Below are positions 4,932 through 23,767 of a DNA stretch of 24,282 nucleotides, one piece after another. Position 1 is the first letter of the stretch; each line of letters begins with the position of its first letter. The notes beneath the pieces were generated by a model, which was given only the letters and a program-made list of their open reading frames with translations, was not told the origin of the DNA and did not search any database. Made by a program: the position numbers and the translations under genes. Origin of the DNA: a virus; IMG/VR virus record IMGVR_UViG_3300009182_000313, positions 1-24,282 of that record, one strand, 5' to 3'.

Positions 4932-7900
4932 ATGAGGCAAAAAGACTTAAAATACTTTGGAGATATACAGTCAGGAAGATTAAATGCAGACGACTCTCCA
5001 TTTGCGGTAACTACTAATGAGTGGGTTAATGCACAGAATGTGCGTACGGGAACTACCGACAAGGGTGTTACGGGGGTTGTTGAAAGTGTTGGGGGAAATG
5101 TAGAAATTCCCAAACCTGCCGACTTAGCCTCAGTAGTTATAGGTGACCAAAAATGGTCAGCACAAAACTTAAATGTAACTAAATATAGAAATGGTGATGA
5201 TATCCTAGAGGTTACAGACCCCACAGCTTGGGCAGCACTAACAACAGGTGCTAGATGTTGGTATAATAACGACCCTGCTACAGGTATTATGCTTTATAAT
5301 TGGTATGCAGTAAACGACCCAAGGGGGTTAGCTCCTCAAGGTTGGTGGATTCCCACACGATATGAATGGCAACAACTATCTACTTATTTAGGTGGCGATA
5401 CCGTATCTGGAGGGAAGTTAAAAGAAGAAGGATTTGCACATTGGATTTCACCAAACACAGATGCTACAAATAGTAGTGGTTTTACTGCTTTGGGAAATGG
5501 ATTCAGAGATTCTAACGGCAGTTTTTTACAAATAAATGAATCTGGAAACATATGGTCTGCAACTGAATATTCACCAAGCCCAGTTGATTACGCTAACTAT
5601 GTAGGGCTTTTATACAATACCGCAGAAGTTGAATTTAATGCAGAATCCAAACAATTGGGCTTTTCTGTAAGGGTAATAACATTCAATTCCCAGTACATAA
5701 CAATAGGCTCAATAGAAGACACAGAGAACAACAGATTTGTTTACTTTGACTATGACACAGTAAGAAGCCATCAAGTGCCTATAGCCAACATAGTGTTATT
5801 AGGTACTCTATTCCCAGCCACCAATTTAATATACACATACGATTCAAGAGCGGCTGTATTAAAGGCAGGAGATGGCATAACTATAATAAACGGGGCTGGT
5901 ACTGCGGTATTATTTACTATTATTTCTTTTACTATTGACCCAGTTAGTAGTTATTATAGAATAGAGCTATCAGATATTTTCCCAATAAATGACAGCTTTA
6001 CTACTGATATTTTTTATACTGCTGGAGGGGAAGATAAGATTGTCTGTATGTATACAGATGCAAATACGCAATACAATGTTTTAACTTCCTCCGAAGTAAT
6101 TGGAGGGTTAAACTTTGACAAAAATTCTCTTATACATAGTGCACATATAGCAAACAATATTTTATCGTGGACAGACAGTACAAACAATGAACCAAGAAAA
6201 ATAAATATAGAGTCTGGCATTGGGGCTAATTACTTATTATTTCCCACAACAGAAAAAAGATATACATTCCCATTAAATTTTGATGAAATAACTTTAATAA
6301 AAAGACCGCCAATATCAACACCTAATTTTATTAAGGATTACGATGCATTGTTTACTAAAAACTTTATAAATAATGAATCTTTTGAGTTTGCGTTTCAGTA
6401 TCAATATTATGACTATGAAACAAGTGTTATAAGTAGCTACAGTGCGTCATCAAGATATAATTTCCCAGTTACAGCCCCAGATAATTCTCCTAATAGAATT
6501 ATTATAACTATGGATTTTAATGAATTTATACCTAATACAGTTAAAATAGTAAACTTAATTGTAAGAAGTAGCGATACAAATTATGCATTTATAGTTAAAT
6601 CATGGGACAAAGGGTTGGCTCAAGATGAAAACCAAATATTAGACCATAATAATAATATTAATGCATTAACATATAATTTTTACAATGACACAATTGGTAT
6701 AGTAATAGCAGAACCAGATGTACTAAGACCATTTGATAATATACCTATTTATTCCCAATCACATGAAATAGCAAAACAAAGATATTTTCTTGCAAATAAT
6801 ATAGATGGATATGATACTCCATTAACTACATCTATGGGTATAGGAGTTGGTAGTTTTTTAAATCCTACTACCACAACAAAAAATACTCAATTAATTAAAA
6901 TAAGTCATGGAGGTAAACATAATACAATCCCATTTCAGTGGTATGGTTATTCTGGGTGGTATTTTTATTTATCATGGGCTGAACAACCAGGTTGGTATTT
7001 ATTAAATGGGTACGATACTACTGTTTTTACATTTAGTTTAAATGCGCCTGGATACCCTACTCCACCTGCGCCCCCGTCATCTATTGTTTATAACACAGCA
7101 AACCTTAGATTTCAAGGCAGAGATATTCAAACTGTAATAAATAAAACAACACCATCCGCATATAAAAATAAATCATCTTCAACTACGCCAGGAAGCACCA
7201 TACCTATAACTGGTATAACTGGTAATATATTTAATGCATTCCCACAATCATCTATATATAAATGCGGAATGGTTTTTTATGATTATGCAATGAGAAAATG
7301 TGGTGTTGTAACTAATAATAATTGTTCAATATCAACTCCAGAAAGAGATTTTAATTATACTGTTGCAATATCTTCTTTTATATGGGGGGTTACTAACGCT
7401 ACTCCATTATTAGAAATACCAGACTGGGCTTATTATTACGCACCCGTATTAACAAAAAATCAAGATAAAAGATTTTTTATACAATCATTTACGAATCAAG
7501 CTAAATATTTTACAAAAGATAGTAGTGGGAATTATGTATATAGTGACCTTTTTTTACCTGCAACTATAGGCATTGCATTAAACACCAATGCTTTAAATAA
7601 TTCTGGGCTTGGATATGTATTTACAGAAGGAGATATTTGTATTTTAACAAAAGATTTTGGAAGCCCTGCTTATCAAACATTTACATTAAATGTTATTGGG
7701 CAAGACAATAATTATATTTTATTGCAAAGCAAAAATATATCTGACCCAAATCCATTAACAGACATAAAATTTGTTTATGAAATATATACTCCATATAAAT
7801 CAGCGCAACCAGAACCTTTTTATGAAATGGGTGAGATATATAAAATAAATAATCCTGGTACTATATATAGAGAATACTCTCAACTATATGGGTATTTTAT

Positions 7901-9218
7901 AGCAGATAGCTATATATTAAATAGAAGCTGGGGTACTAATTTATATTTTGCAAATGCAATGAGTCCAAATGATTTATTTTATAAAACATGGATTACAGAC
8001 ACAGGTAAGGTTAATATTATTACAAGATTAGGTCAAGTAAACAACAACACAGAGGTTGTATGGAGCGACACATATATATCGGGTACACAAATAAATGGCT
8101 CAAGTACATTCCGTTTGGGAAGTCAAACCTTTGTGTCAGATGATTGTGGTTCTATAAATAAACTTCAGAACACATCAAAGGTACAAGACCAGGGTAGTGT
8201 TATGTTAGCCTTGTGTGCAGTAGAAACTAATTCTATGTATCTTGGGGAAACGCAGATAACGGATAGTACAGGTGCAACACAGTTCTTTAGTGCAGGTAAG
8301 GATGTTGTGGGAACTATTAATATATTAAAGGGGAACTATGGTTGCATAGACCCTGCATCAGTTGTTCAGTATCGTGGTAATGTTTATTATCTTGATGCAA
8401 GTAATGGTAGATGGGTACAATATTCTGTAAATGGCTTAGATAATATATCATCAATAAAGATGTCAAGGTTTTGGAAGAATTGGTGCTACAAGTATATGTC
8501 TTTGACAAAGGATGAGATTGAGGCGTTTGGGAATAGACCGTATGTATTTGCAACGGTAGACCCTAGCCATGATGAGTTGTTGATAACAATTCCCAAACTT
8601 TCAGATGTACCACCAAAAGGATTTTTACCTGACTATCCATTGATAGTATATCCATTTGATATCCTAGACTATCAAGGTAAAACTATCTCTTACAAGTTAG
8701 GTACAGGAGCTGTAGTACAACCACATTGGCAGAGTGCATTTAGTTTCAACACAGAATACTTCTGCACAATACAGAACAGGTTGTTTTCATTTAAAAATGG
8801 TAATGCTTGGGAACACAATCAAGACAATCAAAATATATTCTATGGAGTATATTCCCCGTCACAAATAATGTTTACATCAAACATTTTACCACAAATGCCG
8901 AAGGTTTATGATAATTTTTTATCAGAATCTAATATTGTTCCAAATTTTGTGTATTTTTATAATGAATTCCCTTACTTACAAACATCAGACTTAGAGGACA
9001 TTAGTTTTGTACAGAAAGAAGGAATTTGGTACGCACAGATATTGAGAAACAAGGTAGTACCAACAACAAGTGGTGATGTGTATACAGGTTTGTTAACGGC
9101 TGAGGTAATGAGGAATACTAATATGTTTGTTTTAGCAGAGTATTCCCCAACAACATCACCTTTACAACTTCGTATTTTAGAACTAGGAATGTCAATAAGT
9201 AAAGGTCATATAGTTTAA
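4932..9218 (+). CDS. Large tail nozzle/muzzle-like protein with FISUMP domain insert
   Basis: The protein has 1428 residues and no visible signal peptide or membrane segment. The N-terminus (GDIQSGRLNADDSPFAVTTN, then EWVNAQNVRTG, ESVGGNVEIP) and the stretch after the insert (ITIGSIEDTENNRFVYFDYD) fit a beta-propeller-type nozzle protein like T7 gp12 and the crAss-like muzzle. Residues about 67-250 are a full FISUMP domain. Its hallmarks are DQKWSAQNLNVTKY, CWYNNDP, LYNWYAV, LAPQGWWIPTRYEWQQL, GGKLKEEGFAHW, SGFTALGNGFRD and IWSATEY. The rest is a long beta-rich chain. Codons for residues about 440-1030 are markedly AT-richer than either flank. It follows the adaptor-like gene and precedes internal-protein genes, the T7-like order. 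The likely role is the tail tube end, possibly with carbohydrate or surface binding through the insert. It is twice T7 gp12 in length. A receptor-binding or baseplate role cannot be excluded. Confidence 0.55.
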   Translation: MRQKDLKYFGDIQSGRLNADDSPFAVTTNEWVNAQNVRTGTTDKGVTGVVESVGGNVEIPKPADLASVVIGDQKWSAQNLNVTKYRNGDDILEVTDPTAWAALTTGARCWYNNDPATGIMLYNWYAVNDPRGLAPQGWWIPTRYEWQQLSTYLGGDTVSGGKLKEEGFAHWISPNTDATNSSGFTALGNGFRDSNGSFLQINESGNIWSATEYSPSPVDYANYVGLLYNTAEVEFNAESKQLGFSVRVITFNSQYITIGSIEDTENNRFVYFDYDTVRSHQVPIANIVLLGTLFPATNLIYTYDSRAAVLKAGDGITIINGAGTAVLFTIISFTIDPVSSYYRIELSDIFPINDSFTTDIFYTAGGEDKIVCMYTDANTQYNVLTSSEVIGGLNFDKNSLIHSAHIANNILSWTDSTNNEPRKINIESGIGANYLLFPTTEKRYTFPLNFDEITLIKRPPISTPNFIKDYDALFTKNFINNESFEFAFQYQYYDYETSVISSYSASSRYNFPVTAPDNSPNRIIITMDFNEFIPNTVKIVNLIVRSSDTNYAFIVKSWDKGLAQDENQILDHNNNINALTYNFYNDTIGIVIAEPDVLRPFDNIPIYSQSHEIAKQRYFLANNIDGYDTPLTTSMGIGVGSFLNPTTTTKNTQLIKISHGGKHNTIPFQWYGYSGWYFYLSWAEQPGWYLLNGYDTTVFTFSLNAPGYPTPPAPPSSIVYNTANLRFQGRDIQTVINKTTPSAYKNKSSSTTPGSTIPITGITGNIFNAFPQSSIYKCGMVFYDYAMRKCGVVTNNNCSISTPERDFNYTVAISSFIWGVTNATPLLEIPDWAYYYAPVLTKNQDKRFFIQSFTNQAKYFTKDSSGNYVYSDLFLPATIGIALNTNALNNSGLGYVFTEGDICILTKDFGSPAYQTFTLNVIGQDNNYILLQSKNISDPNPLTDIKFVYEIYTPYKSAQPEPFYEMGEIYKINNPGTIYREYSQLYGYFIADSYILNRSWGTNLYFANAMSPNDLFYKTWITDTGKVNIITRLGQVNNNTEVVWSDTYISGTQINGSSTFRLGSQTFVSDDCGSINKLQNTSKVQDQGSVMLALCAVETNSMYLGETQITDSTGATQFFSAGKDVVGTINILKGNYGCIDPASVVQYRGNVYYLDASNGRWVQYSVNGLDNISSIKMSRFWKNWCYKYMSLTKDEIEAFGNRPYVFATVDPSHDELLITIPKLSDVPPKGFLPDYPLIVYPFDILDYQGKTISYKLGTGAVVQPHWQSAFSFNTEYFCTIQNRLFSFKNGNAWEHNQDNQNIFYGVYSPSQIMFTSNILPQMPKVYDNFLSESNIVPNFVYFYNEFPYLQTSDLEDISFVQKEGIWYAQILRNKVVPTTSGDVYTGLLTAEVMRNTNMFVLAEYSPTTSPLQLRILELGMSISKGHIV
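5130..5680 (+). other. FISUMP (Fib_succ_major) domain coding segment
   Basis: Residues about 67-250 of the 1428-residue tail protein match the FISUMP consensus from end to end. The QxWxAxNLNVxxYxNGD opening, the tryptophan-rich core (NWYAV, GWWIP, EWQQL), GGKLKE..HW, SGFTALGNGFR and the closing GFSVRVI are all present. The flanking sequences, GNVEIP before and YITIGSIEDTENN after, read as one continuous structure when the domain is removed. It therefore looks like a cleanly inserted module. Such domains are common in secreted Bacteroidetes proteins; their ligand is not known to me. Confidence 0.8.
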
Positions 9219-9228
9219 AACTATAGTT

Positions 9229-9756
9229 ATGCAAAACGAAGAAAAGTCAGTGGTTACAATTTCGGCTTCTGACATACAAGAGAAGACTAAGGAGCAGAAG
9301 ATAGACGAACTAGAGTCAATAATGGCTGAGAACTTTGACATAATTAGTTGCCCATTAAATCACAGGTTTACAGATGGGCTTTATGTTAGGGAAATATTCA
9401 TGCCAGCAGGTTCTTTGATTGTAAGCAAGATACACAAAACACAGCACCAATATTTTATATTGAAGGGGTCTGTTTCTGTTTGGATAGATGAGGGCGTAGA
9501 GCAATATTTGGAAGCACCATATATTGGTGTTACAGAACCAGGCACAAGGCGTGTTTTATATATTTGGGAAGACTGCATTTGGGCAACGGCTCATGCTAAT
9601 CCAGAAAATGAAGATGAGTTTCAGGTAGAGGAAAGGATTATAGAAAAGCATGACAACCCAATGCTTCCCACAGACCTAAAAGAAAAATTAAAAATAATAA
9701 ATTCATCTAATAGCGTTAGATTAGATTCTGTTAACAATAAAAATTTAGAACTATGA
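9229..9756 (+). CDS. Cupin-fold protein
   Basis: The protein has 175 residues. The centre has the cupin order. LYVREIFMPAGSLIVSKIHK is followed by TQHQYFILKGSVSVWIDEG, giving H69 and H73 in the first motif and the ILKG turn. Then come a PGTRRVLYI motif (104-112) and H122 in a strand, CIWATAHAN. This is a single-barrel cupin, probably able to bind a metal through the histidines. About 35 charged residues precede the barrel and a disordered asparagine/serine tail follows it. It lies between the nozzle gene and the internal-protein genes and overlaps the next gene by four bases (ATGA), so it is co-expressed with virion genes. Its substrate is unknown; it could be a virion decoration or an enzyme. 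Confidence 0.6.
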   Translation: MQNEEKSVVTISASDIQEKTKEQKIDELESIMAENFDIISCPLNHRFTDGLYVREIFMPAGSLIVSKIHKTQHQYFILKGSVSVWIDEGVEQYLEAPYIGVTEPGTRRVLYIWEDCIWATAHANPENEDEFQVEERIIEKHDNPMLPTDLKEKLKIINSSNSVRLDSVNNKNLEL

Positions 9757-12223: not shown

Positions 12224-15200
12224 ATGTCTGGAGCTAAAAAATATGATTTTTCCGCATTTGATGAAGCTGTTAGCAACAAAGAGCAAGCTCCATCTAATAC
12301 TCAATACGATTTCTCTGATTTTGATGATGTAAAAAAAAAAGTAGATGGTCAATCTGGTGGTCAAGAATTAAAGACAAATACCAATCCCCCTACACCCTCA
12401 CCATCACCATCAAATTTACAAGAAGGGGGAGAAAAGCCAAGTTGGCAAACAAGCGCACTTAATCCTGCATACTCAGCACAACAAGCTCAATTAAAAGAAG
12501 ACCAAAGTAAATACATAACGCCTCCTGTATCAAAGGAGGCTAAAGCTGATTTAGGCGCAACTAAGGCTAAGTTAAATATTGCTACAATGCAATTAAAGCC
12601 ACAAGAAAAAATTCAGCTTCCCACAACAAAAAAATTATTTGCAGTTAGCGTTACTGGTGGCGGAAGAACTCCTTTAGCAGAAACGGAAGAAGGGGCTTTC
12701 CAAGGTGCAGAAGATTATGCAAAATATATATGGGATAGAACTGTTGAAACCGTAGGTAAAATTACTTCTGGTACTGTAAAAGGATTAGGCAGAATGATAG
12801 CAATGGGGGATGACCCTAATTTCCCTAAAGAAGCATTTATAAAAGGGGTAGATGAATTAGGCGAAAAAGCTAGAAAAAAAATAGTATCCCCTTTAACGTC
12901 AAATCTGAATGAAAAAAGAAAGCAAGATTTTGATGATAGTTTCCTTGCAAGCACTGTAGCATCATTACCAGGATTAGCTATAGAGGCAGCAGTACCATAT
13001 GGCGTAGGGTTTATGGCAGATGCATTTGATGGTGCAATTACTAATATAAATAATACAAAAGAAGGAGCAAAACTTCCCGAAAGCATGAAGACCATATATG
13101 CAGCAAGCTCAGCAGCAGCTATGGGTATTTTAATGGAAGCAGGTATAGATAAAATTGTTGGGAATAAAATTGGGGTAGTTACTAATAAATTAACTGCTGA
13201 AACTATAACGAAACTTCTTTCTGAATCAGAAGCTCCCATAACAAAAGAAGCATTTGATGCAGCATTCAAACAAACAGCTAAAACATTTAAGAATAAACTT
13301 CTTACAAATACAGCTCAATTAGGACATTCCGCTGCTGTTGGTGCTGCCTTTATGGGTAGCAATGAAGCCTTGAATATAATGGCTGAAAAGGCAATAAATA
13401 AATATGAAGATAAAGATGTTTTTGAGCCTACTTCATTTGGTCAAGATGTAGCTAGAATAATAAAGAAAAGTGCAGAAGGAGCTGGATTTGGTTTAGTTAT
13501 GGGAGGTGTCCATATTCCATTTAATAAGGTAGATAACTATATTAAAACAAAGGTAGCAGAAGCAAAGACTCCCGAAGATATAAATAAATTAAAACAAGAT
13601 TTAGCTCAAAATGTACAAAATAGAGGCATAGATGCTAATTCAGCACAAAGAATTAATAATTTAATTGATGAATATACCAATATTCATAGCCAAATACCAG
13701 CAGAAGTTCAAAATAAAAAACAAGTAGCAGAAAAGATAAAGCAAAGCAATGATTTAAAACAGCAAGCTACTCAAACTTTAGAAAGCGCATCAACTTTACA
13801 CCCTGCATTTCAGTCAGAAAAAGTAGAGGAAGCTCAAAATTTATCAAAGGCTGCTGATGATATTGATAATAAAGTATCAGAAAAACCAATTTATAAAATA
13901 GGAGATAGAGAGGTAGATAGAAATACATTTGAGCAATTTGTAAAAAATAATGACGCTACTACTAAAGATATTGATTTGTATGTTGAGGGAGATGATGAAA
14001 TGAGTACCGAATTAGAAAAGATAGGTGGCGTATCAAAAGTAGCAGATGTAGAAGCAGGTATTCCCGAACACACAATAAAAACACAAACAAATGATAAAGA
14101 AAACATCCCAGGGTTACCAAGTAAAGTCGGAGTCGGGGAAGAACCTGTCACAACCGAACCTATCAAAGGAGCAGGCGCAGAAGAGATTAGCACAAGTGGA
14201 GTACTTCAAGCACCAGGGGCTGAAGGAGAAGGGAAAGGAATTGGTGATAAAGTTGGGGAAGAAGTAAAATCCAAAACAGATGCTGAGATAGAAACAAGGA
14301 TGTCTGAATTAGAAAAGAGTAATAATTATGATACAGGTGAATTTGATATTCTTGAAAAAGAAATGGAAAAAAGAGAACGAAATAGTGTTTTTGGTGTAAC
14401 ATTAGATAAAGTAAATGATGCGGTTGATGCTCTGATGAAAAAAGAAAAAGAAATGCCAAATGGATATGGTTCTTTTATTGAAAAAAGCGATGCAAGAGAA
14501 ACAAAAGCAGTAGCAACAAAATATTTAAATGCAAAAGAACTTACCGATAAAGAATTAAAACAAGATTTTTCAAATGCATTAAGAGGAAGACCTACCACTT
14601 GGTATGCTGATGGATTAAAATTAAGAGAATCATTAAAAGAAGCTACTAGTAGAGGTATTGATACAAAAGAAATGGTAGGTGAAGCAATTAAAGTATATAC
14701 AGATGCAGGATATGATATTGAAACAGCAAAAGATGTAGTAGCTGGTATGTTAAAGCCTGTATTTGAAGGTTCAACTGAAGCAAAGCCAGAACTTCCCCAA
14801 CAAAAAACAGTAGAACAACTAAGAGCAGATGAACAAGCCGAGTACGATGCGATGCCTGACCCAACAGACGAAGCAAAGCGAAAAGAAATTTATGACAAGT
14901 ACGATAAACTTATTAAACCTTTATTAAAAGAAGATGTAGGAAAGCTAGAAGTTCCCAAACAAGAAGAAACAAAAATAACAGGCATAGATGAAAAAGAAGT
15001 AGCAAGACTAGCTAAGCCTACTACAGATAGAATGGTAGAAATAGAACGTGAATTTGAAAATAAAGGATATACCATAGATACTACTTATGATAACGAAATA
15101 ATTGTAAATGATAAAGACGGGGAGCAAGTAGAGTTTGAAGATTTGCCAAATGAATTAAAGGATATTACATTAGAATATCAAGCCGCTACTGCAAAACTTG

Positions 15201-18200
15201 GAGAGGTTAGTGATAAGGCTAGGGAAATGGCACTTGCCGAATCTAGGAAAGTAGTAGAAACGGAAGCGGAGGTAGTTGAGCCTGAAAAGGTAGCACTTCC
15301 CGAACAAAATCAAGAACAAGTAAACCAACAAGAACTAAGAGAAACAGAAAACCTACTAAATGACGGAGATAAAATAAGAAAAGAAGGCAAGTATGTAAAA
15401 GACGGTGTTGAGTATGTTAGAAATGAAAAAGGTTTGGGAATCAAATCCGAAGAAGGTGGCAGTGTTAGATTTACAAGTGAGCCAGGTGGTGGCGGTGTAT
15501 CAGTTCCCTTTACATACAAATTAGTAGAATCGGAAACACTACAGCCTTCGCATCAAGACGGACTAAGAAATCCTAATCATTTTATATGGGAAGCACAACC
15601 TAAGAATAGAAATGACGAAGGTAGTATTCAAGCGGAAGAAGGATTTGCAAACAAGCCAAGGTTTGCTGAAATGGGCGAAAATACAAATGCGTATAGTGGT
15701 GCACCTGTAGTTAATGAAAGAGGTGAAGTTATACAAGGTAATAATCGTTCAGCAGGGTTAAAGAAGGGATACCAAAGGGGTATTGAAACATACAAAAAAT
15801 CACTTGCTGAAAATGCTGAAAACTTTGGATTTACAAAAGAACAAGTAGAAGGAATGAAAAATCCTGTTCTTGTAAGGGAAGTAGCAGTATCTGATACAGG
15901 CGCAATAGAACTAGGAAATTACGATGTAAAGGATTTGGAGTCGGGAGGTAAAAGAAGATTAGACCCTGTAGCCATAACAAGAAGAATGCCTTTTGAATTA
16001 AAGGGTAGAATAGCTGACTTGTTATTTAAGGGTGAGGGAACTCTTAATCAAGCCATTAGAGAGAATACAAAAAGATTAATGGAATTAATTAACCCATTCC
16101 TTAATCAAGCACAGAGAAATACTATTTTTAAGGACGGGGAATTGACGCAAGACGGGGCTAAGGATTTAGAAACTGTAGCACAACATTTCTTATTTGATGG
16201 CGGAGATACAGCACTTCCCGAACTTCATGATAATCTATCTCATACCCAAAAAGAAGGTCTAAGAAAATCATTACCATATATATTTTCTACAGGTATAGAA
16301 AAAAGCATAGTACCAGAAGTACAAGAAGCTATAATTGCATTAAACGACTTTGCTGCAAGTAAAGCAGGAAGTTTTGATAATTGGTTAGCTCAGTCCGATA
16401 TGTTCAATAACGGAATGACACCAAAAGACAAGTATTCCCCAACAGCAATAAAATTAGCAGAAATACTAAATGATGCTAAAAACCAAAAAGAAATAACAAA
16501 CCAATTTGGTAAATACGCAGAATTAGTAAATGATAAACCTGCTACAATGTTTGATGAAGCCACAAAGGGCATTTCTAAAAAAGAAGGTATTAAACAAATA
16601 TTTAAAACAGAATATGATGAAAGTAAAAGACCCGCAATTAGTGAAGGAGGTGGTAAGCAGATTCCTACACAAGAAGAACCACTCCCACAACCATCTGCTG
16701 AACCAAGTGCAACAAAGCCTACTAAGCCAACAACAAGAGCCACAGCAGAAGCAGCCAAGCCAAAGCCAGCAGAGCCAAAGCCAGCAGAGCCAAAACCAAC
16801 AGCTCCCGAACAAACAGCCATAGAAAAAGCAAGAGAAGCAAGAAAGACAGCTAAAGAAAAACTTGATACTATAAGAAGAGGGTTGGGCATCACTCCTGAC
16901 CCTAAAAAAGAAGCGGAAGCTCTATTTGAATACCATAAAGCATTAGTTACGGAAGCTAAAGAATACATTAAGGAAGGTGTTAAATCCGTAGAAGAATGGG
17001 CTAAGGAGGTAGGGGAAAAGGTAGGCGTTGCCTTGAAATCAGCATGGGACGAAGCAAGCGGTAAGATTTCCCCTACAGAAAAAGTAGAAGATTTAAAATA
17101 TACAATAAATGATTTGCCAAAAATAGAAGCCGAGAATATAGTTCTATCAAAAGGTAAAATACAAATGGGGGGTGAAGATGTAAGGGGGATAACTGTTGAG
17201 GAAAATAAAGAAAGAAGAAAAGATTTAGGTATGCCAGAAAGACAACCTAATCCAGAATCTTTTGAGCAATGGGATAATGAAGCTAAAAGTATTGTAGAAA
17301 ATGGATACAATATGAATAATCTTATTGAAAAAATGGAAAGGGGGGAAGCGACAACTCCTGTAGAAAATTCAATAAGGAAAATATTTGCTGCCACAATAGA
17401 TAAAAAATTAACAGAAAATCCATCTGATGAATTTTTAACTCAAGCAAGAAGATTTATAAAGGCATCCGATGTAGCTAGTTCCCAAGCAGGTAAAAATTTA
17501 GTTTCATTAAAATCAAATTCAAATCCACTTGAAACTATAACGGATTTCTATATGGCTAAAATGGATGCCAACGGAGTTGATGTCCTTACGGAGCAACAAA
17601 AAATTGATGTTCAAGAGCAATTTGATAAAATAAATGCAGCCAAGCAAGAATTTGAAATTAAATTAAAAGAGGCAGAAGATAAAAATTTAGCGTTGTTGGC
17701 TCAGAACGAATTGCTAAAACAACAAAAAAATAATCCTAAGCCAAAAGTTCCCAAACAAAAGAAAGATTTCATAGAAGAAAGACAATCTCTTAAAGACCAA
17801 TTAAAACAAGCAATACAAAAATATAAAAACAATTTAAACAAATTAGGCATATCGCCAGATGGTGGAGCTGAGAATTTTGCTATAACGGTAGACATGGCTA
17901 AGATAATAGCCAAAATAGCTAAAAGCCATGTTGAAGAAGTGGGAGCTAAATTATCAGAAGTAACAAAAAGAACGCTTGATGATGTAAAAGACTTATTTGA
18001 TGGGATAACAGAAAAGGATATAACAAACGTAATTGCAGGGGAGTATTCGGAAGGTAAAAAAACAAAATCTCAATTACTAGCCGACTTAAATGAAATTAAA
18101 TCAGAAGCTAAATTATTAAATGAATACCAAAGAGTTTTAAATGGCGAAGCCAAAACAGAAAAAGATAAAATAAAAAAGAATCAAAAATTAGTTGATTTAA

Positions 18201-20080
18201 GAAAATCTATAAACGAATTAAAAAAAGAAAAAGAGGTAGAGCAGTATTCAGACGAAGCAAAGGCTAAGAGAATGATAGAGGCTAACAAGAAGAAAGAGCA
18301 ACAAATAAGAGAGAAATTAGATAATGAAGATTTTGAAAAAGAAGATAAACCTAAATCTTTATTTGAAAACAAGGAATTTAAAAATAAGAATCCTAAATTA
18401 TATAAAGAGTTGCTAGATTCTTACACAGCAAAACAAAACGCTCTTCATGAATACGAAGTTGCTTTGCTTAATGATACCAAATCAAAGATGTCAAAAGGAG
18501 AACAAGTTTTGGATTTCACATCAAAAGCCGTTAATACAACAAAGAAACTTGTTACTGGTGTTGATGATTCCGCATTGTTTATGCAGACTTTGGTAGCCAT
18601 GATGTCTAGACCCATAACAGGTGGCAAAGCATTTGTTTCTCATATAAAAGATGCTGCATCCCAAAAACTATACGAAAGAAATTTAGCAGAATTGCACAAT
18701 AGCCCAATATTTGATTTAATGCAAAAATCTGGGTTAGATATTACAGAACCCAAAACATTATCAGCAAAAGCAAGAGAAGAGGCTTTTGCAGGGGAATCGC
18801 TTGATTTTAATGTTAAAATAAAAGGTAAAAATCATAGAGTGTTAGGTACATTATTAGAGCCATTTGAAAGAGCATTTACTAGTTTGGGTAACAATATGAG
18901 AGCCATCGCTTTTACAGAGTTGTCAGAAAAATACATGAGCGAAGGGTATACATTTGAAAATAATCCTAAATTGTTTAAGGATTTAGCTGCAATGCTAAAT
19001 ACTGAAACTGGCAGAGGAAAACAAAATGAGTATATTGAAAAAGCATCTAAATTAGTAACAGCAGGCATATGGTCGCCAAGGCTAATGGCATCAAGATTAA
19101 ATATTTTAGGCATAAGTGATGTATTGAGTCCATTTGTTAAAGGGACTGAGGGTTATTATAGAAAAATGTCACCAGAGATAAGAAAGCAAGCTATATATTC
19201 AGTTGCTAAATTTACGGCAGCAATAATGGCTCTATCTTATAGTGCAGCATATATGTTTAATGGAGATGTAGACAATGACCCTACAAGCCCAGGATTTATG
19301 GATATAAAAATAGGAGATAAAATATATAATATTGCAGGTGGGTTTGCTCAATACATAAGATTGATTGCTCAGACTATACGAGGGGGTAAAACAATTGATG
19401 GTAAATTTAAGGAATTTAGAGGCGGAGACAGGTCTGGTAATATGTTGCATTTTTTAAGAGGAAAATTAACACCAGTGGCTGGAACGGCAGCAAATGTTAT
19501 ATCTGGCATGAAAGATTATGTTGGACAACCAGTGACTGTTTCTCAAGAAATAAAAAAATTGACTATACCATTATCAATGCAAGGAGTATCAAAAGAAATG
19601 GAAAGAGATGGCGTAGCTTCAATATTTAAATCTGACTTGCCATCATTTGTGGGGATAGGCGTAAAGGATAAGAGGGATTTTAAGAAAGAAGAAATGTTTA
19701 CTGAAAAAGAAATGCAATCTTCTTTATTCAAAGATTTAGCTAAATCAGACATAGAATTTCCCAAACTTGGAACAAGATTATCGTACACAGTAAAATCAGA
19801 TGACGCTCATCCTAAAGGGGTAATGACAGTGGATGAATATAATAAATTCTCAGAGCTTGTAATCAAGTATTCCCATGACTATACAAAAGAAAACCTATCC
19901 GATTCTTATACTATATCTAATATTAAAAGATTAAAAGAATTAATTGATAAAGAATCGGAAGACCCTAAAATACAAGCAGAGATAACTGAATTAAAAAAAC
20001 AAATAAAATCAACTTTACAATCAGCACATAAAAATGCCATAGATATGGCAAGGGATGAATTGAAATTATATACAAAATAA
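12224..20080 (+). CDS. Giant polyvalent-type internal virion protein with DdrB/ParB-like domain
   Basis: The protein has 2618 residues. The N-terminus carries two short repeats, YDFSAFD (7-13) and YDFSDFD (28-34), and a proline/serine linker. Several hydrophobic Ala/Gly-rich segments follow between about 240 and 435. A long coiled-coil and linker region precedes a ParB-superfamily DdrB-like domain at about 1090-1385. Its core motif, VVNERGEVIQGNNRSAG (1162-1178), contains the conserved G-N-x-R. A K-P-A-E repeat linker (about 1485-1545) and long lysine/glutamate coiled coils come next. The C-terminal part has a hydrophobic helix (2324-2347), GDVDNDPTSPGFMDIKIGD and LRGKLTPVAG, as in large polyvalent phage proteins. 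It is the last and largest of three internal-protein genes, like T7 gp16. I infer ejection into the host, with roles in membrane crossing and DNA protection. No lysozyme or protease motif was found. Confidence 0.6.
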   Translation: MSGAKKYDFSAFDEAVSNKEQAPSNTQYDFSDFDDVKKKVDGQSGGQELKTNTNPPTPSPSPSNLQEGGEKPSWQTSALNPAYSAQQAQLKEDQSKYITPPVSKEAKADLGATKAKLNIATMQLKPQEKIQLPTTKKLFAVSVTGGGRTPLAETEEGAFQGAEDYAKYIWDRTVETVGKITSGTVKGLGRMIAMGDDPNFPKEAFIKGVDELGEKARKKIVSPLTSNLNEKRKQDFDDSFLASTVASLPGLAIEAAVPYGVGFMADAFDGAITNINNTKEGAKLPESMKTIYAASSAAAMGILMEAGIDKIVGNKIGVVTNKLTAETITKLLSESEAPITKEAFDAAFKQTAKTFKNKLLTNTAQLGHSAAVGAAFMGSNEALNIMAEKAINKYEDKDVFEPTSFGQDVARIIKKSAEGAGFGLVMGGVHIPFNKVDNYIKTKVAEAKTPEDINKLKQDLAQNVQNRGIDANSAQRINNLIDEYTNIHSQIPAEVQNKKQVAEKIKQSNDLKQQATQTLESASTLHPAFQSEKVEEAQNLSKAADDIDNKVSEKPIYKIGDREVDRNTFEQFVKNNDATTKDIDLYVEGDDEMSTELEKIGGVSKVADVEAGIPEHTIKTQTNDKENIPGLPSKVGVGEEPVTTEPIKGAGAEEISTSGVLQAPGAEGEGKGIGDKVGEEVKSKTDAEIETRMSELEKSNNYDTGEFDILEKEMEKRERNSVFGVTLDKVNDAVDALMKKEKEMPNGYGSFIEKSDARETKAVATKYLNAKELTDKELKQDFSNALRGRPTTWYADGLKLRESLKEATSRGIDTKEMVGEAIKVYTDAGYDIETAKDVVAGMLKPVFEGSTEAKPELPQQKTVEQLRADEQAEYDAMPDPTDEAKRKEIYDKYDKLIKPLLKEDVGKLEVPKQEETKITGIDEKEVARLAKPTTDRMVEIEREFENKGYTIDTTYDNEIIVNDKDGEQVEFEDLPNELKDITLEYQAATAKLGEVSDKAREMALAESRKVVETEAEVVEPEKVALPEQNQEQVNQQELRETENLLNDGDKIRKEGKYVKDGVEYVRNEKGLGIKSEEGGSVRFTSEPGGGGVSVPFTYKLVESETLQPSHQDGLRNPNHFIWEAQPKNRNDEGSIQAEEGFANKPRFAEMGENTNAYSGAPVVNERGEVIQGNNRSAGLKKGYQRGIETYKKSLAENAENFGFTKEQVEGMKNPVLVREVAVSDTGAIELGNYDVKDLESGGKRRLDPVAITRRMPFELKGRIADLLFKGEGTLNQAIRENTKRLMELINPFLNQAQRNTIFKDGELTQDGAKDLETVAQHFLFDGGDTALPELHDNLSHTQKEGLRKSLPYIFSTGIEKSIVPEVQEAIIALNDFAASKAGSFDNWLAQSDMFNNGMTPKDKYSPTAIKLAEILNDAKNQKEITNQFGKYAELVNDKPATMFDEATKGISKKEGIKQIFKTEYDESKRPAISEGGGKQIPTQEEPLPQPSAEPSATKPTKPTTRATAEAAKPKPAEPKPAEPKPTAPEQTAIEKAREARKTAKEKLDTIRRGLGITPDPKKEAEALFEYHKALVTEAKEYIKEGVKSVEEWAKEVGEKVGVALKSAWDEASGKISPTEKVEDLKYTINDLPKIEAENIVLSKGKIQMGGEDVRGITVEENKERRKDLGMPERQPNPESFEQWDNEAKSIVENGYNMNNLIEKMERGEATTPVENSIRKIFAATIDKKLTENPSDEFLTQARRFIKASDVASSQAGKNLVSLKSNSNPLETITDFYMAKMDANGVDVLTEQQKIDVQEQFDKINAAKQEFEIKLKEAEDKNLALLAQNELLKQQKNNPKPKVPKQKKDFIEERQSLKDQLKQAIQKYKNNLNKLGISPDGGAENFAITVDMAKIIAKIAKSHVEEVGAKLSEVTKRTLDDVKDLFDGITEKDITNVIAGEYSEGKKTKSQLLADLNEIKSEAKLLNEYQRVLNGEAKTEKDKIKKNQKLVDLRKSINELKKEKEVEQYSDEAKAKRMIEANKKKEQQIREKLDNEDFEKEDKPKSLFENKEFKNKNPKLYKELLDSYTAKQNALHEYEVALLNDTKSKMSKGEQVLDFTSKAVNTTKKLVTGVDDSALFMQTLVAMMSRPITGGKAFVSHIKDAASQKLYERNLAELHNSPIFDLMQKSGLDITEPKTLSAKAREEAFAGESLDFNVKIKGKNHRVLGTLLEPFERAFTSLGNNMRAIAFTELSEKYMSEGYTFENNPKLFKDLAAMLNTETGRGKQNEYIEKASKLVTAGIWSPRLMASRLNILGISDVLSPFVKGTEGYYRKMSPEIRKQAIYSVAKFTAAIMALSYSAAYMFNGDVDNDPTSPGFMDIKIGDKIYNIAGGFAQYIRLIAQTIRGGKTIDGKFKEFRGGDRSGNMLHFLRGKLTPVAGTAANVISGMKDYVGQPVTVSQEIKKLTIPLSMQGVSKEMERDGVASIFKSDLPSFVGIGVKDKRDFKKEEMFTEKEMQSSLFKDLAKSDIEFPKLGTRLSYTVKSDDAHPKGVMTVDEYNKFSELVIKYSHDYTKENLSDSYTISNIKRLKELIDKESEDPKIQAEITELKKQIKSTLQSAHKNAIDMARDELKLYTK
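16757..16798 (+). repeat. Short in-frame repeat encoding KPAEP linker
   Basis: A 15-base unit close to agccaaagccagcag occurs nearly three times in tandem and encodes KPKPAEPKPAEPKP. It forms a flexible linker after the DdrB/ParB-like domain of the giant protein. The unit is in frame, so copy-number change would lengthen or shorten the linker without breaking the gene. Confidence 0.7.
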
Positions 20081-21053: not shown

Positions 21054-21698
21054 ATGACAAATTTTATAAATTTAAAAGGACAAAAATTTAATAGATTATT
21101 AGTTATAGATATATATGATAAAAAAAAATCAGGTTCATATAGATATATATGTAAATGCAATTGTGGTAAAGATACAATCGTGGAATCTAGTAAGCTAAAA
21201 AGTGGTTGGACTAAATCTTGTGGATGTTTACAAAAAGAAATTGTATCTGCAAAAGGTACAAAACATAAATTATGTAATCATAAATTATATGGCGTTTTTA
21301 ATTCTATGAAAGAAAGATGTTATAATAAAAAAAATATAAGGTTTAAAAATTATGGTAATAGAGGTATAATTATTTGTGATGAATGGAGAAATGATTTTAA
21401 ATCTTTTTATGATTGGGCTATAGCTAATGGATATAAAGAAGGTTTGCAAATAGATAGAATAGATGTAAATGGCAATTATGAATCATCCAATTGTAGATTT
21501 ATTTCTTTTAAAGAAAATATGAATAATACTACAAGAAATGTGTTTATTGAAGTAAATGGCATTAAAAAAACAGCAGCTCAATGGGGAGAAGAAGTTAATA
21601 TAAATGGTATAGCTATAGCACAAAGAGTTAGAGAGGGTAAAACTGGATTAGAGGCTATTTATGGAACAAAATATAAAAACAAATGTCTGAAAAAATAA
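21054..21698 (+). CDS. HNH-type homing endonuclease-like protein
   Basis: The protein has 214 residues. An N-terminal zinc-ribbon-like part has CKCNC (33, 35, 37) and SCGC (56, 58). Next comes the family core, KLYGVFNSMKERCYN (78-91), NYGNRGIIICDEW (99-111), and IDRIDVNGNYESSNCR (133-148) with KENMNN. The C-terminal segment, KKTAAQWGEEVNINGIAIAQ, resembles a NUMOD-like helix-turn-helix. This family of free-standing phage endonucleases is usually annotated HNH, though a classic first histidine is not obvious here. The DNA is about 15-20% G+C in places, well below its neighbours, and lacks the TTCCC pentamer. It starts one base after the preceding stop and overlaps the large terminase start by 16 bases. 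I infer a mobile intruder; a role in packaging cleavage is the alternative. Confidence 0.7.
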   Translation: MTNFINLKGQKFNRLLVIDIYDKKKSGSYRYICKCNCGKDTIVESSKLKSGWTKSCGCLQKEIVSAKGTKHKLCNHKLYGVFNSMKERCYNKKNIRFKNYGNRGIIICDEWRNDFKSFYDWAIANGYKEGLQIDRIDVNGNYESSNCRFISFKENMNNTTRNVFIEVNGIKKTAAQWGEEVNINGIAIAQRVREGKTGLEAIYGTKYKNKCLKK

Positions 21699-23767
21699 CA
21701 ATATATCATACCGAAATAGAACTTCCCAAACAACCATCTATTGAAGAAATAGAAAATTGGGGAGTAAATGATATATCAGAACAATATTGGAGAAGAAGAG
21801 AATTGCCAGGTTATTTTGAATTGGTAGAATATGATAAAGATGGTAATGCTTTATTAAATTACGAACAAAGAGATTATGCAGTAGAAGAAGTAAAAAGATG
21901 TAGGGAAGGATTTTGGTTTATGAATAATGGCAATCCTACATATATAACAGGAAGAAATTATTTTTATTTGCAATGGTGGAAACTTGAAGATGATATTTAT
22001 CCAGACTATCGTGATTTAGATAGACGATATTTTATCTTTTTAAATCATTGGCAAAAAATTCCCTGGAATATCGGAATTTTGATAGGTAAGAAAAGAAGAC
22101 AAGGGCAGACCTCTATTGGTACATCCAATCTCATATACGAATGTATATTTTTCAAGAATAGCAAATGTGGTCTAACAAGTAAAACAGAAAAAGATGCAAA
22201 AACTGCTTTTACGGACATGGTTAGTTTTGGTTACCGTCAACTCCCAGTCTTTCTAAAACCTAAACAATTAAATAATAAAGACTCTGTAACTGAACTTGTA
22301 TTTGCGCATAAATCTGTTACGGTAAAGGGAGGAAAGGGCAGTAGTATAGATACTGATATAGGTCATAGGAGTAAGGTAGATTATCGTGCTCCAGGAAAGA
22401 ATGCATATGATTCTGGCAAATTAAATTATGGGCTTTTTGACGAAGGGGGGAAGTTCCCTTTAGAAGTCCCATTTTCTGAATTTTTATCTATTGTTAGCAA
22501 GACCTTAGTTAAGGGAGTAAAGAAGGTTGGTTATATAGAATGTCCCTCAACAATGAATAATATGTCTAAAGGTGGCGGCTCTGAATATAAAAAGGTTTGG
22601 GAATTGGCTGACTTTAAAAAATACGATAGAACGCCCAACAGAATGGTAAAATATTTTACTCCTGCTTATGATGGGTTCTTAGGATTTATAGATAAATATG
22701 GAATGTCAGTAATAGACCCACCAACTCCTGAACAATATGATTATTTAGTAGAGAACTTTGTAGGCATAGGCGACTTAACAGAAGAAGATGTGAAATTAGG
22801 GGCAAGACAATATCTTTTAGAAAAAAGAACAGGTCTTGAAGGCTCTCTTCTTGAGGAAGAGATTCGTATGAACCCTTTTGATGAGAAAGAAATGTTTATG
22901 TCAGCCCAGCAAGGCAGTATATACAACACATTTAAAATAAATGAGCAATTAGATTGGTTAAATTTTAACAAAGATTGCGTAGAAAGAGGTAATTTAGTGT
23001 GGGAAAATAATGATGAGTATTATAAGGAAGTCGTTCACGGTAATGGAGTTAGGGAAATGAAACCTAGTAAACTTATGTGGGTGGCAAATCCTAATGGTAT
23101 GTATGAGAAGGTAGTAGGTTGGATGCCCAAGGAAGCAAACAATGTTTTCCAAAGGGCAGGTAGTTTTGCACCAAACGGAAACTATGCGGTAAGGATTGGA
23201 TGTGACCCATTTAAGTACGATAAAACAAAAGACAACAGAAAATCAAACTGTGCAGCATATGCGTATCAAATTGAAGACCTATTGGATGAGAGCAGCCCGT
23301 ATAACGATATGTTTGTTTTACGTTACGTTGACAGAGCGGCTACGACAGATATTCAATACCAATACGTATTAAAGATGGCATGGTTTTGTGGCTGTCAGGT
23401 TTTATTTGAGAGAAATGTAAATGGTTGGAAGAAGTTTTTTGAAGAGAAGTTGTGTAGTTCGTTCTTGATGTGGATGCCAGGGGAAGTAGAGCCAGGCATC
23501 TACTCTGATGGTAAGGGTAAAACCATACAGCAAATATGCGACTTTACAGAGTCATATATTGAGAAAGATGTTAACAAGGTCTATTTCCCACAACTATTAG
23601 GAGATAAATCTGGCTGGTTAGGTTTTGAAGTAGGCGACACACAGAAGTATGATGATGCTATGGCAGCAGGATTTGCTCTTATAGCAGCAAAGTCAAAGAG
23701 GTACTACAAGCCTCAAGAGGCAACACAAAAAATAGAAACAATAATGCCATATAGAAAGGCAATATAA
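21683..23767 (+). CDS. terL: Terminase large subunit
   Basis: The protein has 694 residues, with both enzymatic halves intact. In the ATPase domain, a Walker A-like loop, GKKRRQGQTS (135-144), lacks lysine in the usual GK[ST] slot. The lysines lie earlier, as in deviant terminase P-loops. Walker B is YGLFDEGG with D253/E254. A motif C candidate is VGYIECPST. The nuclease half has the RuvC/RNase H-like acidic triad: D508 (IGCDP), E576 (LFERN) and D657/D658 (QKYDDAMAAG). The enzyme pumps phage DNA through the portal into the prohead and cuts it. The start at 21683 overlaps the HNH gene; the portal gene follows 15 bases after its stop. Length and motif spacing are normal for the family. Confidence 0.93.
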   Translation: MSEKITIYHTEIELPKQPSIEEIENWGVNDISEQYWRRRELPGYFELVEYDKDGNALLNYEQRDYAVEEVKRCREGFWFMNNGNPTYITGRNYFYLQWWKLEDDIYPDYRDLDRRYFIFLNHWQKIPWNIGILIGKKRRQGQTSIGTSNLIYECIFFKNSKCGLTSKTEKDAKTAFTDMVSFGYRQLPVFLKPKQLNNKDSVTELVFAHKSVTVKGGKGSSIDTDIGHRSKVDYRAPGKNAYDSGKLNYGLFDEGGKFPLEVPFSEFLSIVSKTLVKGVKKVGYIECPSTMNNMSKGGGSEYKKVWELADFKKYDRTPNRMVKYFTPAYDGFLGFIDKYGMSVIDPPTPEQYDYLVENFVGIGDLTEEDVKLGARQYLLEKRTGLEGSLLEEEIRMNPFDEKEMFMSAQQGSIYNTFKINEQLDWLNFNKDCVERGNLVWENNDEYYKEVVHGNGVREMKPSKLMWVANPNGMYEKVVGWMPKEANNVFQRAGSFAPNGNYAVRIGCDPFKYDKTKDNRKSNCAAYAYQIEDLLDESSPYNDMFVLRYVDRAATTDIQYQYVLKMAWFCGCQVLFERNVNGWKKFFEEKLCSSFLMWMPGEVEPGIYSDGKGKTIQQICDFTESYIEKDVNKVYFPQLLGDKSGWLGFEVGDTQKYDDAMAAGFALIAAKSKRYYKPQEATQKIETIMPYRKAI

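Follow-up and report, generated by a model that had tools for sequence, protein, structure and literature searches.

A FISUMP domain occupies an exchangeable slot in a crAss-type phage tail muzzle protein

The window, by which we mean the whole 24,282-nucleotide stretch of phage DNA analysed here, carries at positions 4932 to 9218 (+) an ORF of 1428 aa encoding a crAss-type tail muzzle protein. The identification was made from a Pfam match to crAss_MUZ_C (PF25729) at residues 1299 to 1373 (8826 to 9050, +) and from the structural match of a homologue, L012. The Pfam match was a marginal pass, at 27.3 bits against a cut-off of 27. Higher scores were obtained for L107, L108, L008 and the second ORF of L016, while L085 reached 25.5 bits, just under the cut-off. 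The distantly related muzzles of Flavobacterium phage elemoF and Cellulophaga phage Calle_1 passed the muzzle C-terminal model strongly (65.9 and 65.0 bits), and gene order in both phages resembles that of the window, with structural proteins, the muzzle and a small protein. A Foldseek search with the model of L012, an empty-site homologue, returned the phi-crAss001 muzzle 7qok (E 9.9e-9) as its sole match at E <= 0.001. Against 7qol the same model gave Z 10.5, with 358 aligned residues that begin at L012 residue 57 and residue 50 of the chain; this match to phi-crAss001 gp44 belongs to L012 only, and the L012 model is of low confidence (mean pLDDT 46.8). An earlier note on this DNA had called the product a tail nozzle protein. 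We prefer the name muzzle to nozzle because of the crAss_MUZ_C pass and the match of L012 to the phi-crAss001 muzzle.

By homology, the window protein probably has a ring-joining, beta-propeller and Ig/crass-type architecture. It shares its C-terminal domain family with phi-crAss001 gp44 (PDB 7QOK/7QOL; PF25731, PF25729) and, via L012, its overall structure. In the published muzzle, the ring-joining domain and the propeller both resemble those of the T7 nozzle, and length varies through insertions in the crass and IG2 regions; the excerpts of that paper contain no mention of a domain in the loop before blade 1 (PMC10172136). In the window the central region, residues 426 to 1025 (6207 to 8006, +), is Ig2/crass-like by position and mosaic in nucleotide identity between relatives. 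On another IMG/VR contig from this phage, that of L002, genes matched terminase and portal PHROGs and the capsid model SU10_MCP. Judging from relatives, the host is probably a member of the Bacteroidota; the taxonomy line of Calle_1 reads Pervagoviridae, without Crassvirales.

Several neighbouring genes were also assigned. Directly after the muzzle, a small ORF at 9229 to 9756 matched short tail fibre/adhesin PHROGs (E 7e-30). An ORF of 2618 aa at 12224 to 20080 carries a ddrB-like ParB domain (PF18763, E 2.5e-26), which suggests a polyvalent protein. An HNH endonuclease gene (21054 to 21698; phrog_374, E 6e-71) lies just before the ORF at 21683 to 23767 (694 aa), whose counterpart in the contig of L002 matches a large terminase PHROG. 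That contig also holds, at L221:1112-9836, two long tail genes of 1782 aa and 1065 aa. The first matches a tail spike PHROG and the second a minor tail PHROG, with additional Fn3-like matches; from these matches, the two could be the main receptor-binding proteins of the phage.

Within the muzzle gene, the 22-row alignment delimited an insert of 193 aa, residues 61 to 253 (5112 to 5690, +). Its left border is the conserved N-terminal segment GVTGVVESVGGNVEIP, residues 45 to 60 (5064 to 5111, +), and its right border, which coincides with two strands of the model, is the segment of the first propeller strands, QYITIGSIEDTENNRFVYFDYD, residues 254 to 275 (5691 to 5756, +). The insert contains a FISUMP domain (Fib_succ_major, PF09603/TIGR02145) at residues 68 to 249 (5133 to 5678, +), recognised by Pfam, by NCBIfam and in a well-modelled part of the predicted structure. 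PF09603 matched over profile positions 1 to 186 of 187 (E 4.1e-33; 115.7 bits, cut-off 33.9) and TIGR02145 matched the same domain (E 1.3e-20; 74.8 bits, cut-off 41.65), so that both curated cut-offs were passed over nearly the full profile. The insertion is in frame. The earlier note had described a complete FISUMP domain set cleanly between the flanks ESVGGNVEIP and ITIGSIEDTENNRFVYF. Completeness was borne out by the profile match, both flanks were found at the places given, and in empty-site homologues the same two flanks are joined by 4 to 13 residues in place of 193. An assembly chimera was considered and rejected, its likelihood being close to nil, because L002 carries the gene and five relatives, at 56-82% identity, carry a FISUMP at the same insertion point. 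L002, a separate contig whose sample is not assumed to be independent, differed from the window at 7 of 15,215 compared bases, none within the FISUMP.

To place the insertion among relatives, slot contents were counted in 22 distinct muzzle contigs covering the site, with the window and L002 counted once. The slot was empty, with a linker of 4 to 13 residues, in 11 contigs (L010, L011, L012, L181, L184, L190, L191, L194, L195, L198 and L199). One FISUMP was present in 8 of the 22 (the window, L003-L007, L009 and L207), and L085 had two in a slot of 383 residues. The remaining two slots held unrelated segments, of 63 residues in L008 and 171 residues in L185, neither of which gave a Pfam match above cut-off or a PHROG match. 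This sample is non-random, its loci having come from pattern scans in which some patterns lie inside the FISUMP. L192 was left out because its contig begins downstream of the slot, and the more distant loci L013-L078 lie outside the census. The muzzles of two isolated outgroup phages, an Elemovirus and a Callevirus, also appear to have nothing inserted in this hairpin; sequence identity to them is low. The earlier note had proposed that the domain is exchangeable, the alternative being that all homologues carry it. Empty-site versions are present, so the alternative fails, and the 11 empty slots and the two unrelated segments agree with an exchangeable module. Since half of the homologues do without the domain, it is dispensable for the muzzle family.

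A scaffold tree was built from residues 1-60 and 1026-1428 only, columns of which L010 fills 13%. L190 (empty) and L185 (other segment) fell within the window's own clade with support 100/100, and it is the occurrence of empty and otherwise-filled slots in this subclade that marks the insertion as clean and exchangeable. A further pair, L008 with its 63-aa insert and the empty L011, had scaffold identities of 57/58 in the N-terminal and 386/406 in the C-terminal part. Well-supported branches forced at least 2 changes in FISUMP presence, an earlier 12-row tree likewise gave 2, and all slot states together needed 5. Given the empty outgroups, two gains of the FISUMP are the simplest reading; one gain followed by several losses is a possible alternative history.

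The earlier note had also called the domain recently acquired. For the domain as a whole this was not supported, because the FISUMP is common to muzzles whose conserved C-terminal scaffolds are only 75-78% identical (window against L009, L085 and L207). Recent replacement applies to the C-terminal half only, as described below, and is clearest between the window and L006. A quick domain tree split the slot FISUMPs, implying 3 changes with weak support. A tree holding them together scored better (p-AU 0.975, calculated after removal of three long-branch rows, from L095, L176 and L106); we therefore do not claim several separate captures from cells, exchange from one muzzle to another being just as possible. 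Of the two L085 domains, the second alone was represented in the domain trees, from which short domain matches had been removed. A single origin of the slot FISUMPs, as the sequences allow, would fit transfer between muzzles. FISUMP relatives were found at 69 loci in GTDB contigs, most of them titled Chitinophagaceae or other Bacteroidota. The closest cellular FISUMP among these contigs was L110, from Chitinophagaceae, 57% identical in the best segment. These Bacteroidota proteins (PF09603, TIGR02145) share the whole-domain profile match with the window but come from bacterial assemblies, whereas the window's domain sits inside a phage muzzle.

Divergence between close relatives was unevenly distributed along the gene. 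Between the window and L006, dS was 0.07 at residues 1 to 64, 0.08 at 65 to 164, 1.38 at 165 to 249 and 0.34 at 250 to 275, with silent sites saturated and 3 gapped codons in the C-terminal half of the FISUMP. A segment scan, which measures uneven divergence and not recombination in itself, placed the replaced stretch at residues 166 to 243 (5427 to 5660, +), where 95 of 225 nt differ against 25 of 591 outside, and 0 of 500 permutations scored as high. Taken with the dS values, this is a clear recombinational replacement as read from the sequences, in which an allele of the C-terminal half was swapped relative to L006. Of the five pairs scanned, four had a high-divergence segment in this half, again with 0 of 500 permutations as high; the exception was L004-L006, with a segment at 61 to 177 and 25 of 500 permutations as high.

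C-half dN was 0.37-0.71 in four of the five pairs. In three of them, window-L003, L003-L005 and L004-L005, it compared with only 0.09-0.12 in the N-terminal half, while dS differed less between the C-terminal and N-terminal halves (0.63 against 0.54, 1.06 against 0.81 and 0.71 against 0.43, respectively). Because C-half dS is near or moderately above that of the N-half, the excess in these three pairs is mainly amino-acid change; older recombination, diversifying selection or weak constraint may each account for it.

Identity also changed abruptly outside the FISUMP. The window and L003 are 100% identical in the 78 nt that follow the domain (residues 250 to 275), with identity at 68% in the preceding C-terminal half and 84% in the next segment. 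L004 and L006 share 99.8% nucleotide identity over residues 426 to 600 and 56.6% over 276 to 365. L004 and L005 show the reverse pattern, with 69.2% over 426 to 600 and 98.4% over 276 to 365. Residues 276 to 365 (5757 to 6026, +) are themselves a second inserted segment, shared by the window and L003-L006. In L207 its place is taken by a different segment of 128 aa, and the other 16 of the 22 aligned rows have at most 5 residues at this position. Residues 276 to 365 matched nothing in PHROG and nothing above cut-off in Pfam. They are predicted to form a small beta-barrel, the model of residues 279 to 365 having matched barrels in phage and other proteins at Z up to 8.5 in VIA-align.

Variability concentrated in the C-terminal half raises the question of a diversity-generating retroelement (DGR), for which the FISUMP would be the variable region, a role that such domains have in other FISUMP/DUF1566 proteins. 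DGRs are documented to target Fib_succ_major (passages in PMC4159848 and PMC8143477), one has been reported from a crAss-like phage (excerpt of PMC7290462), and the Bacuni phages and human microbiome DGRs have variable proteins alike in domain family and C-half variability. Here, however, RVT_1 matches were absent from sets of 7 and 39 records, any of which may be incomplete or fragmentary and which cover part of the slot contigs. In the 7 possibly incomplete records searched for a template, the variable half matched the FISUMP gene alone, with no second copy outside it (one of the 7 gave no match), and no repeat of at least 30 bases of the variable half was found within the window. DGR-type variation should leave neither silent saturation nor indels. 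The change that stands out most clearly here, that of the window against L006, replaced a segment; its dS of 1.38 and 3 gapped codons do not look like the product of adenine-directed substitution from a single template. The other pairs are less clear in this respect. With neither reverse transcriptase nor template repeat in the fragments searched, a DGR behind the FISUMP variation is improbable.

Predicted structure bore on what the domain may be and where it lies. In a model of residues 1 to 480 of the window protein, the FISUMP was predicted at pLDDT 84-97 in blocks from residue 71 to 250, and residues 1 to 62 were below 50; the model is good for the FISUMP only. VIA-align matched the FISUMP model to the C-terminal domain of Legionella Lcl (8q4e) over 106 residues with rmsd 4.1 and 21% identity, at Z 8.0, the level at which the tool warns of a mere common arrangement. 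Foldseek found no match of the window model in the PDB at E <= 0.001, and sequence searches of the PDB gave nothing at E <= 1 and E <= 0.1. The best viral structural match was another FISUMP (E 1.5e-21, rmsd 0.9), and the FISUMP ORF of L100 had an Lcl_C match below threshold (28.9 against 34.9 bits). We regard the resemblance of the predicted FISUMP fold to the Lcl C-terminal domain (8Q4E) as tentative. Lcl itself differs in being a trimeric adhesin domain on a collagen-like stalk; it recognises sulphated glycosaminoglycans, and its C-terminal domain is without the usual C-type-lectin motifs for calcium or carbohydrate binding (excerpts of PMC11162425).

VIA-align matched many propeller structures across a span from about residue 54 to 430-456 but aligned no more than about 75-85 residues of it, as expected if both flanks form one propeller and the inserts are skipped. 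In the model, strands A-D of blade 1 may be read as residues 255-263, 268-275, 369-374 and 379-385, which would put the FISUMP in the loop before A1 and segment 276-365 in the B-C loop. As a general rule, the DA and BC loops of a propeller share one face. In phi-crAss001, Ig1 is set between blades 2 and 3 and the Ig domains are found below the propeller (excerpts of PMC10172136). On this reading of the strands, the window's FISUMP occupies an inter-blade loop of the class that holds Ig1. Since these loop classes share a face and the phi-crAss001 Ig domains lie below the propeller, we infer that the FISUMP is on the host-facing side. Because residues 1 to 62 are unreliable, the placement of the slot was taken from topology and from the L012-7qol alignment beginning at residue 57. 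The earlier note had suggested structure prediction as a way to see whether the domain protrudes from the tube: the domain itself is well modelled, and protrusion is not displayed by the model itself, in which residues 1 to 62 have pLDDT below 50.

The tentative Lcl fold match and the propeller topology together favour a surface-exposed binding role, and by analogy the most likely function of the FISUMP is host or glycan binding. Against this role stand the Lcl match of only Z 8.0 and the other candidate adhesins of the phage. If the FISUMP were instead a structural spacer or stabiliser without specific ligand, its variability would reflect weak constraint. Half of the homologues do without it, muzzle region 426-1025 varies as strongly, and the role suggested for DUF1566 is carbohydrate recognition and/or trimer formation (excerpts of PMC11162425), all of which a spacer would accommodate. 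However, eight FISUMP positions are kept in at least 90% of a 48-row alignment (37 rows being isolated FISUMP pieces), variation between close relatives is concentrated in one half, and Bacteroidota and phage ORFs repeatedly contain related domains, as single or tandem copies; we regard a spacer as unlikely, though the strongest of the rival readings. That the FISUMP docks another virion part, such as a tail fibre or cargo protein, and not the host, appears less probable still, and slightly less likely than a retroelement. The phi-crAss001 muzzle does touch the barrel and hold cargo (excerpts of PMC10172136), and the next ORF here, 9229-9756, is the one with tail fibre/adhesin matches, but the slots of Elemovirus and Callevirus appear empty even though a small ORF, by position, also follows the muzzle.

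Our preferred reading is that of a swappable slot FISUMP acting as a surface-exposed host-binding module, to which as a whole we give a probability of roughly 0.62. The muzzle has a slot that tolerates inserts, with its conserved N-terminal segment on one side and the first beta-propeller strand on the other, and the FISUMP, a compact module of Lcl-CTD-like predicted fold, has been inserted there. Different lineages have filled, emptied, duplicated or refilled the slot, and homologous recombination within the flanking conserved DNA can exchange the C-terminal half of the FISUMP. With a hexameric muzzle as in phi-crAss001, each tail would bear six FISUMP copies, and these would contact the host surface, probably a glycan, when the tail docks. 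The insertion and the slot states are seen directly in the alignment, and the muzzle identity and one clear recombinational replacement are likewise shown; host-facing exposure, binding and any effect on host range are proposed.

A broader proposal can be put forward with less than even confidence. The loop before blade 1 may be a general docking slot of crAss-type muzzles, loaded with host-derived lectin-like FISUMPs or unrelated modules, gained independently at least twice, with the binding half diversified by recombination between conserved DNA borders. If true, the muzzle rather than the fibres would be diversified, in a manner comparable to that of DGRs but without a retroelement. A domain family known from DGRs apparently varies here without one. 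That related viruses leave the slot empty or fill it differently suggests a place where parts with possible host-cell contact can be plugged in. A discrete domain by the propeller that is naturally missing or swapped also gives a handle for comparing the empty, FISUMP and other slot states. A literature search, judged by titles, the beginnings of abstracts and passages, returned no report of a FISUMP in a muzzle.

FISUMP domains were also seen at other places in muzzle-type and further phage ORFs. L106 has one at residues 203 to 391, after a region aligned to window residues about 371 to 431; its slot appears empty by eye, and the protein is muzzle-like by profile, without a Pfam muzzle match. 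ORFs of 1380-2235 aa at 14 loci have a FISUMP close to their C-terminal end, and muzzle family membership among these was checked for L016 and L018. In L016 (5656-11390) the muzzle is split into two ORFs, the first matching PF25731 and bearing the FISUMP at its C-terminus, the next matching the muzzle C-terminal domain. The long ORF of L018 combines a FISUMP with a sub-threshold cadherin match and has no Pfam muzzle match. In the contig of L005, a weak second FISUMP match (G004:C1:22285-22662, minus strand; E 0.002, below cut-off) lies in a 3163-aa ORF downstream of the muzzle. Tandem arrangements were found in further phage ORFs, with two FISUMPs each in L090 and L098, three in L100 and five in L088 (4723-7785).
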